36,402 bases of DNA from an uncultured bacterium (GTDB lineage: Bacteria > Patescibacteriota > Minisyncoccia > Phycocordibacterales > UBA2163). Both the position numbers and the translations under genes were made by a program. Below the pieces are notes generated by a model, which had not been told where the DNA came from, ran no database searches, and saw only the letters and a list, made by a program, of their open reading frames with translations. Where the stretch lies: contig CAJWGW010000003.1 of assembly GCA_913041175.1 (NCBI GenBank), positions 1 through 36,402 of the forward strand, written 5' to 3'. Positions 16,165 through 36,402 of this stretch are shown in pieces (positions within the stretch are counted from its first letter, which is position 1; every line of letters starts with the position of its first letter).

Positions 16165-16191
16165 GCTAAATACGTGTTTTATTTTTTATTG

Positions 16192-16563
16192 TGGAGACGG
16201 CGAAAATTGAATCCGCGTGCAAAGAAAGAATTTAAATGATTCTACAAAACATAGTCAACTTTAGGATTTCAGCATGTGGGCTTAAAAGAAGACAAAATAC
16301 CCATACGCCAATTCTCTTGATTTCGGAAGCGCGCCGAGACGCTCGCTTTTCCTAGTTTGAAATTATTACACCCGAATCTGCTTATCAAACTTGGGCAGAT
16401 CAGACGCCGGCTTAGGCTATTGCGTAAGCTGGAGTAAGAGAAGCAAAAGCTCCTTTTACTTTAGAGATAACGTTTGCACGTATCTTTTCGAAATTTTAAG
16501 GAAGATTCCGACTTCCGTTTTGCACATATAAATTACATTCCCTTGTCGAGGCCTGTCATCCCC
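16192..16563 (-). ncRNA. ssrA: transfer-messenger RNA (tmRNA)
   Basis: About 372 nt on the minus strand with the tmRNA frame: a 5' end GGGGATGACAGGCCTCGACA and a 3' tRNA-like end with T arm GCGGATTCAATTTTCGC and acceptor GTCTCC. The acceptor pairs GGGGATG with CGTCTCC through two G-U pairs. The discriminator is A and CCA is not encoded. The tag frame lies at 16412-16477: 21 codons starting ANVISK and ending AYAIA, then TAA. It rescues ribosomes stalled on mRNAs without a stop. smpB, encoding its partner, is directly upstream and ftsH directly downstream. Confidence 0.93.
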
Positions 16564-19155: not shown

Positions 19156-19569
19156 TCAGATTTGTTTGCTTCTTTGAAATTTCCATACTGCGTATAAAGA
19201 TGCAGTAACCGCACCAAGTGTATCCATCAGAAGGTCAACGGACGTATCAAGTGGATAATCTGTTGCAAATACCAGCACACCTGCATAAATTTCAAAAATC
19301 TCCCAGAGTACCCCTATTACAATAACCGAGGCAATTGAAACAGTGAATATGTTACGCGCTGAAAGTTGTAAAGTGAATTTTTTGGCGACACTTGAAAAAA
19401 AGAAGAACCAAATTGAAAAAATCCCAAACCAAAGACCTCCGAGAAAATGCATAAGATTGTCAAACCACGGAAACGTCCAGTACAGGAAAAACTGCATGGC
19501 ACTTATATGTAATATTCCGATTATTAAAACTAATATGAAGTTCGTTAAAAAAAGTGGATGTTTAAGCAT
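19156..19569 (-). CDS. four-helix membrane protein, YjdF/DUF2238-like
   Basis: This 137-aa integral membrane protein has about four helices (8-32, 38-58, 76-98 and 115-130). Conserved-looking residues sit at helix ends: FDNLMHFLGGLWFG (35-48), GVLWEIFEIYAG and YPLDTSVDLLMDTLGA. The combination H-x-x-GG, WE-x-x-E and D-x-x-x-D-x-x-x-D-x-x-GA resembles DUF2238/YjdF and VanZ-like membrane proteins of unknown biochemical role. A TATAAT (19578-19583) is 8 nt before the ATG. Confidence 0.68.
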   Translation of the reverse strand: MLKHPLFLTNFILVLIIGILHISAMQFFLYWTFPWFDNLMHFLGGLWFGIFSIWFFFFSSVAKKFTLQLSARNIFTVSIASVIVIGVLWEIFEIYAGVLVFATDYPLDTSVDLLMDTLGAVTASLYAVWKFQRSKQI

Positions 19570-19596: not shown

Positions 19597-19633
19597 TTAA
19601 AACCCCCTCCGCCAAGGGCGGAGAGGGGGTTTT
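19597..19633 (-). terminator. GC-rich intrinsic terminator of the putative ncRNA
   Basis: Stem around ACCCCCTCCGCC / GGCGGAGAGGGGGT (19601-19629, one-base bulge), followed on the minus strand by TTTTAATTT; on the plus strand it also ends in TTTTAA. On the minus strand it ends the transcript starting near 19760. Confidence 0.85.
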
Positions 19634-19635
19634 AA

Positions 19636-19760
19636 GCAGGGTTACTAAAGTATTGACCACGATTAATACCATGTGGGTGTCCTTAGTGCTGAACCAATGG
19701 CGCAACATCCTCAAGACTCCCTGAACAATGAGTAAACTAGACAATACTCTAACTAACCCT
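19636..19760 (-). ncRNA. putative structured non-coding RNA with closed 5'/3' stem
   Basis: There is no ORF here, but the minus strand has a complete transcription unit. A promoter (19767-19794) places the start near 19760; from there the RNA begins AGGGTTAGTTAGAGTATTG, which pairs almost fully with its own end CAATACTTTAGTAACCCT (19636-19653), an 18-bp stem with one bulge and one G-U pair. A GC-rich terminator follows at once. The inner part holds further pairing options, such as CCAC/GTGG around TGGTATTAATC. The long closing stem resembles the plan of 6S RNA, though it is short for one. It lacks the SRP RNA apical motif and RNase P signatures. Family unknown. Confidence 0.6.
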
Positions 19761-19766
19761 ATCTAC

Positions 19767-19794
19767 ATTATACTCCTATGAAAAACTTTTGCAA
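19767..19794 (-). promoter_or_regulatory. sigma70 promoter of the putative ncRNA
   Basis: On the minus strand TTGCAA (19789-19794) and perfect TATAAT (19767-19772) are spaced by 16 nt. The predicted start 6-7 nt downstream coincides with the first base of the closing stem of the RNA. Confidence 0.7.
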
Positions 19795-19854
19795 TATTGT
19801 TTTCACTAAAAATTTGTATCGTGCATATCTATTCGTTCGTCTAAGCGAGGTGTG

Positions 19855-20043
19855 TCGTTTGAAATAGCCTTATTCGTCGGAACGTAGCAAGTTCTGTTCA
19901 AAGGACTTCGCAGGCCGAGCGGGCAGGGTTCGAGCGTAGCGAGAGAGCGAGGCCGAGACTGAGCGCGTGCTCACGCTGGGAGTACGACGCGTGCCTTTGA
20001 GAAGAAGCTTGCGGAGTGGAGTTTATGTGTGCTTTTCAAACGA
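19855..20043. repeat. GC-rich fold-back element with terminal inverted repeats
   Basis: TCGTTTGAAA (19855-19864) is exactly inverted at 20034-20043, and the match continues imperfectly on both sides (GGTGTG / GGTATGC outside, TAGC / AGC inside). A second nested pair, TCAAAGG (19898-19904) / CCTTTGA (19994-20000), follows the same symmetry. The interior is much richer in G+C than its surroundings and contains stuttering GAGCGTAGCGAGAGAGCGAG motifs. No ORF is present. It looks like a small non-coding repeat or MITE-like insertion between ndk and the ncRNA. Confidence 0.55.
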
Positions 20044-20060
20044 GCATACCGAGCGGTCCT

Positions 20061-20675
20061 TTATTCTAAAATCCCGTCCAAATCAACATCATAAAGTATT
20101 GCTTCTTGTACAAGACGATAGTTTACCATTTCATTTTCTTTAAACCAAAGTTTGATTTCTTTTTCTGCTTCTTCCACGGAGCCGGAAGCATGAAGAACAT
20201 TTCTTACTGCTCTTCCGTCTGTGTCAGACATTACATATGAATCCAAGACAAAGTCCCCACGGATTGTACCGACGTCCGATGTCAATGGTTCTGTTGTTCC
20301 AGTAATCTTTCTGACAATACCTACAGCATGTGCACCTTGCCACACCATAAGAACAACTGGTCCGCTTGTCATATATTTTTTTAAATTTTCAAGAACTATT
20401 TTTGTAATCTCAAGAGGATCTTCTGATGGTGGTGTGAGTCCTTTCTTTTTATAATTAGCAATATTTTTTTCTCCAGTCTTTCTCATCCATTCAGGGTCAA
20501 TTGTATAATGCGTTTCAATAACTTCTGGTTTTGGAATAACTATTTTAAGACCGATAAGCTTAAGTCCGATTTTCTCATATCGTTTTATTACTTCTCCAAC
20601 GAGAGACCTCTGAACTCCGTCAGGTTTTATAATTACAAAAGTCCTTTCTTCTTTGTGATGTTTATTTTTTGCCAT
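20061..20675 (-). CDS. ndk: nucleoside diphosphate kinase, with insertion
   Basis: This enzyme transfers the gamma-phosphate between NTPs and NDPs through a phospho-His. It has RTFVIIKPDGVQR (11-23), the MTSGPVVLMVWQG block (102-114), TIRGDFV (137-143) and catalytic His162 in RAVRNVLHASGSVEEA. At 204 aa it is longer than the usual 140-150: about 25 residues are inserted near 58-90 (a Lys-rich segment with KKKGLTPPSEDP) and the C-terminus is extended. It follows map by 22 nt, in the tail of the ribosomal operon. Confidence 0.95.
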   Translation of the reverse strand: MAKNKHHKEERTFVIIKPDGVQRSLVGEVIKRYEKIGLKLIGLKIVIPKPEVIETHYTIDPEWMRKTGEKNIANYKKKGLTPPSEDPLEITKIVLENLKKYMTSGPVVLMVWQGAHAVGIVRKITGTTEPLTSDVGTIRGDFVLDSYVMSDTDGRAVRNVLHASGSVEEAEKEIKLWFKENEMVNYRLVQEAILYDVDLDGILE

Positions 20676-35030: not shown

Positions 35031-35185
35031 ATTCATATTCTTTCTTTTGTTTCGTTCTATTGGTCTTTCCCAAATGCCAGATTGCTTTTAAGATATTCAA
35101 TCATAATCTTTTCTGAACTCGATCGAGATCCAGAAAACCGACTCAATAAGTCCAATCTACATAATATGTAAATGAACGGGTTCCG

Positions 35186-36402
<1,217 letters not shown>

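Follow-up and report, generated by a model that had tools for sequence, protein, structure and literature searches.

The window, a 36,402-nt stretch of DNA from a 444-kb genome of an uncultured member of Patescibacteria, carries on its minus strand (19636-19760) a gene for an RNA that, judging from its sequence and from those of its relatives, is very probably a diverged and shortened 6S RNA. 6S RNA is a mimic of an open promoter that blocks bacterial RNA polymerase and acts as a global brake on transcription.

The RNA gene, its homologues and its surroundings

The original prediction for this interval was a structured RNA that has a promoter and a terminator of its own, is preceded on the minus strand by TTGCAA-16-TATAAT and starts on the first base of the closing stem. 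These elements can be read directly in the sequence (Table 1), with A19760 of the minus strand as the predicted +1, and the homologues bear them out: a -10 element matching at least five of six positions closely precedes the first paired base in 83 of 90 homologues, compared with 59 of 1073 control windows, and a terminator directly follows the RNA in 76 of 90. The 127-nt RNA has a minimum free energy of -43.8 kcal/mol (z -3.95), which no shuffled sequence equalled; folding the RNA and the terminator together gives z -7.0.

Clear homologues were retrieved with BLASTN in two genomes of the genus and in one further family of the order, and compensatory changes were already visible in the alignment of these sequences with the window. 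The covariance model built from the four sequences (R1) matched 124 of the 197 genomes of the order, nearly always in single copy. A second model (R2), built from 44 diverse members and including the 3' hairpin, matched 158 of the 197 genomes of the window's order, 111 of 286 genomes in the class and 135 of 380 in the phylum. Across the order there is almost always one copy per genome, and no second R2 match was found in the whole source genome. Most members are 110-130 nt long (110 nt in L098). A search with the core pattern matched, among named records, those of Paceibacterota / Parcubacteria. Second copies lie within about 300-500 bases of the first at L118 (G052:C2), L035 (G041:C47) and G085:C30, an arrangement reminiscent of 6S-1/6S-2 pairs.

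Table 1. Features of the RNA locus and its neighbours (coordinates of the window)
Feature	Position	Strand	Basis and remarks
ndk (nucleoside diphosphate kinase)	20061-20675	-	PF00334, E 1.6e-37; conserved upstream neighbour
-35-like element, TTGCAA	19789-19794	-	Sequence; TTG-rich -35 weakly recurrent among homologues
-10 element, TATAAT	19767-19772	-	16-nt spacer from TTGCAA; 6 nt ahead of the start
Predicted divergent short 6S RNA, ~125 nt	19636-19760	-	R2 match, 78.2 bits, E 3.8e-14
Closing stem P1, 5' strand	19742-19760	-	Pairs with 19638-19655; compensatory changes in 17/17 model pairs
Central bubble, 5' strand, UCUAGUUUACUCAUUGUUCA	19722-19741	-	A/U-rich; unpaired in the model
Apical helix P2, 5' strand, GGGAGUCU	19714-19721	-	GGGAG core common to RF00013; 98.5% of P2 cells paired
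Short apical hairpin	19683-19713	-	Variable; 8 covarying pairs, 90.5% of cells paired
Apical helix P2, 3' strand, GGACACCC	19675-19682	-	CACCCAC core common to RF00013
3'-bubble hairpin P3 (CAUGGU-AUUA-AUCGUG), putative release hairpin	19658-19673	-	94.9% of cells paired
Closing stem P1, 3' strand	19638-19655	-	Partner of 19742-19760; fold and covariation
Intrinsic terminator	19599-19635	-	G+C-rich hairpin ending UUUU, directly 3' of the RNA
Small membrane protein gene	19156-19569	-	Conserved downstream neighbour; own -10 TATAAT at 19583-19578

In the fold, a closing stem leads into an A/U-rich central bubble, which bears a hairpin at its 3' side and is topped by a short apical arm. The alignment used for model building (A6) consists of edited strings, with insertions taken out and N in place of gaps, which biases its helix counts toward the structure. 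In a second alignment (A7) of 78 natural sequences, distant ones included, which is likewise fitted to the model, 92.9% of cells are paired, compared with 38-46% (about 44%) for slid controls, and 34 of the 38 model pairs show changes on both sides. The closing stem, the large central bubble and the apical stem, as known from 6S RNA, are kept by compensatory changes; in P3, these occur in four of the six pairs. As to the closing-stem arms first proposed, the 5' arm (19742-19760) was correctly placed, while the 3' arm, given as 19636-19653, lies about 2 nt from its actual position. Loss of pairing between these arms in relatives had been named as an outcome that would speak against a structured RNA; in the relatives examined, the arms still pair.

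In ten members (L055, L056, L094, L101, L107, L113, L115, L116, L117 and L118), the apical arm is longer and contains GAUGAG ... CUGACGA-like strands. By its sequence, this insert looks like a box C/D-type k-turn, for which an L7Ae-like protein could be a ligand.

The ndk gene lies upstream, on the same strand as the RNA, at 77 of 90 loci. Between ndk and the RNA promoter, the stretch 19840-20050 of the window is richer in G+C and contains no open reading frame of at least 80 aa; since ndk is closer to the RNA in most relatives, this stretch may be an insertion. RNase P RNA is encoded near the 6S match at six loci (L180, L183, L184, L186, L188 and L191). At the far end of the window, a small-subunit rRNA gene is split over two contig ends, L137:12665-13251 (C13) and 35185-36402 of the window (C3). 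Its first 326 model positions occupy 587 bases in C13, suggesting an insertion in the rRNA gene.

Relation to 6S RNA and alternative readings

The Rfam model of 6S RNA, RF00013 (187 positions; cut-off 46.4 bits), had no match in the window up to E 10 and none in the source genome. The Rfam search proposed with the original prediction found no family fitting the RNA region of the window at the curated threshold, and none matched at the RNA in 20 members of the order; the alignment of relatives proposed alongside it yielded the compensatory changes in the closing stem. NsiR1 and the other Rfam matches in the region up to E 10 are weak, unrelated chance matches, that of NsiR1 stemming mostly from the terminator hairpin.

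The link to 6S RNA was found in more distant members. When Rfam was run on 20 distant R2 loci, RF00013 fell on top of the R2 match in nine. Its score reaches 49.8 bits at L174, above the cut-off, 41.9 bits at L181 and 36.7 bits at L182. In a survey of 380 genomes of the phylum, RF00013 matched in 30, four of them above the cut-off; 27 of the 30 matches coincide with R2 matches in place and strand, two more (L196 and L198) do so at a lower R2 score, and G476 lay outside the comparison. The window's order has three sub-threshold RF00013 matches, all three on model matches. In alignments, RF00013 and the new RNAs have in common a core, GGGAG...CACCCACCU...GG, flanking the A/U-rich bubble, and alignments of distant members place the 5' bubble strand of the window on the RF00013 central bubble. 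The window retains GGGAG and CACCCAC, but in its genus the letters of the 3' hairpin are of the CAUGG/CGUGG type. R2 did not match E. coli 6S RNA. As the window misses RF00013 up to E 10 and R2 misses the E. coli RNA, homology to RF00013 stands via the intermediate members of the phylum. The curated RF00013 score, which is Rfam's operational criterion and not a biological one, is not reached by the window, and the RNA is therefore filed as a diverged subfamily and not as a curated member of RF00013.

The new RNA resembles 6S RNA (SsrS, RF00013) in having a closing stem, an apical arm, a central bubble rich in A/U with a hairpin on its 3' side, and the conserved core, and in being a free-standing gene with promoter and terminator. 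In E. coli 6S RNA, the -35-like contact lies in the apical arm. Unlike in RF00013, this arm is a single short hairpin in the new RNA, the closing stem is one nearly uninterrupted helix, part of it having been lost, and the length is about 110-130 nt in most members; in all but four of the 380 genomes of the phylum, the new RNAs fall below the Rfam cut-off. At 125 nt, the RNA of the window is shorter than the typical 160-200 nt of 6S RNAs, a length that is not a defining feature. 6S RNAs have been described at 160-200 nt, with that of Aquifex (~160 nt) named among the shortest known, and a length below 150 nt has been used to exclude 6S candidates (PMC9130861). The original prediction noted the resemblance to 6S RNA and set it aside for the short length; the resemblance turned out to be the answer. 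Its suggestion of an uncharacterised, lineage-specific RNA survives only in so far as Rfam lacks the short form, which was seen here throughout the phylum; as to kind, the suggestion is wrong, the RNA being very probably a diverged 6S RNA.

Further parallels come from individual RNAs. The 6S RNAs of E. coli and B. subtilis have, or can be induced to form, a hairpin on the 3' side of the bubble; it is found here as P3, which as in E. coli can share a strand with the top of the stem (PMC8876501). A B. subtilis 6S-1 RNA trimmed to its bubble and two short arms can still bind, template pRNA and be released in vitro, though its affinity is about ten-fold lower (PMC8876501); the new RNA has a similar build, although here the short form is natural and the hairpin strongly conserved. 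Ms1 RNA of Actinobacteria also has a 6S-like architecture that is recognised only by lineage-specific searches, but it measures about 300 nt, has extra end hairpins and binds core polymerase (PMC9130861). Ms1 tends to vanish from small genomes (PMC9130861), whereas the new RNA is kept in a 444-kb genome.

Ms1 also bears on the question of target. 6S and Ms1 RNAs have a common bubble architecture and yet bind different forms of the polymerase (PMC9130861), and both the length and the apical arm of the new RNA are strongly reduced, so a 6S-derived RNA whose function has changed with a new target, such as the sigma-free core RNA polymerase bound by Ms1, has to be considered. We regard this as improbable, because the core flanking the bubble is retained as in RF00013 and each of the 18 near-complete genomes tested encodes sigma70 region 2.

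Gene order raises a different reading, in which the RNA is a cis-acting leader, either a riboswitch or an attenuator, whose output would be the terminator. At 69 of 90 loci of the order, a gene for the same small membrane protein, which has no Pfam match in the window, follows on the same strand, with the terminator in between. The terminator and the closing stem have no strand in common, however, and hence lack the mutual exclusivity expected of such a device. The downstream gene has its own TATAAT, and in several distant members a tRNA gene takes its place behind the same RNA, which there scores as 6S. A leader is thus highly improbable, and the promoter-like and terminator sequences of the RNA, together with these two observations, make it look like a free-standing gene. 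In four of the distant members (L181, L186, L188 and L190), the tRNA gene starts some 20-35 bases past the 6S match, and both may form one transcript.

The missing SRP RNA (4.5S) of the lineage was considered as RF00169 was unmatched in 16 genomes, the window's own (G000) and 15 relatives, in which controls were detected. The idea was dropped since Ffh/FtsY (PF00448) is absent from the same genomes as well, with only short or sub-threshold P-loop matches, in line with the report that neither ffh nor ffs was found in Parcubacteria (PMC4508563). In distant members, moreover, the loci of the new RNA are matched by RF00013, which leaves the SRP reading barely credible: with neither an RF00169 match nor Ffh, the computational evidence excludes SRP RNA. 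The original prediction had set aside SRP RNA, tmRNA and RNase P RNA, and rightly so for the latter two also, as the Rfam tmRNA match sits elsewhere in the window (16189-16563) and that of RNase P RNA on another contig. That an unrelated structured RNA should look like 6S RNA by chance would fit the lack of a direct Rfam match in the window and in 20 members of the order, but it is scarcely conceivable given that 29 of the 30 RF00013 matches in the phylum coincide with matches of the new model.

Predicted action and meaning

RNA polymerase binding, the synthesis and start of pRNA and the physiological role are inferred here from the predicted identity as 6S RNA. The A/U-rich bubble would imitate an open promoter, and the predicted RNA would thereby occupy the sigma70-RNA polymerase holoenzyme, lowering transcription while nucleotides are scarce. 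The source genome encodes one primary sigma70 and one further sigma factor, and the primary one is the likely partner. Once nucleotides return, the polymerase would make a short pRNA by copying first the 5' bubble strand and next the closing stem; this pRNA is predicted to start in UCUAGUUUA and to proceed toward the 5' end. This synthesis would free the 3' strand of the stem top, which would fold into the P3 hairpin, and the RNA would be released. In the E. coli RNA, the helix beneath the bubble is opened as pRNA is made, and an extended hairpin arises from the freed 3' strand of that helix and the 3' bubble strand (PMC8876501).

The 3' strand of P3 has a second possible partner at the beginning of the 5' bubble strand, and this pairing would extend the closing stem. 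In a test of 1000 swaps among sequences, with kinship not removed, the own pairing of P3 beat all swaps (mean score 13.2 versus 10.2). The alternative helix did so in 1000 of 1000 swaps, again with kinship not removed and by a smaller excess than P3 (9.8 versus 9.25), and a control segment pair showed no excess. These sequence comparisons make a two-state switch between the stem top and the P3 hairpin likely, and no stronger claim is made as the swap test leaves relatedness in.

More broadly, a proposal that we consider evenly poised is that these RNAs form a phylum-wide, natural minimal 6S RNA with a bubble, two short arms and a built-in switch, carrying on its apical arm, in some lineages, a k-turn-like module able perhaps to recruit an extra protein, which has been kept despite the genome reduction that removed SRP and would control the polymerase in cells dependent on a host or partner. 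Among the open-access papers searched, we found no relevant one joining 6S RNA with Patescibacteria; prior reports may exist elsewhere, and the few members above the Rfam cut-off may have been annotated automatically. 6S RNA is almost wholly unannotated in this very large phylum: RF00013 exceeds its cut-off in four of 380 genomes, whereas R2 has matches in 135 of these genomes and, within the order, in 158 of 197. The short RNA would lower the size limit for accepting an RNA as 6S and would be a naturally occurring equivalent of the truncated 6S-1 constructs, which still function in vitro (PMC8876501). It would also name a transcription-wide regulator for ultra-small bacteria that are thought to depend on partners.
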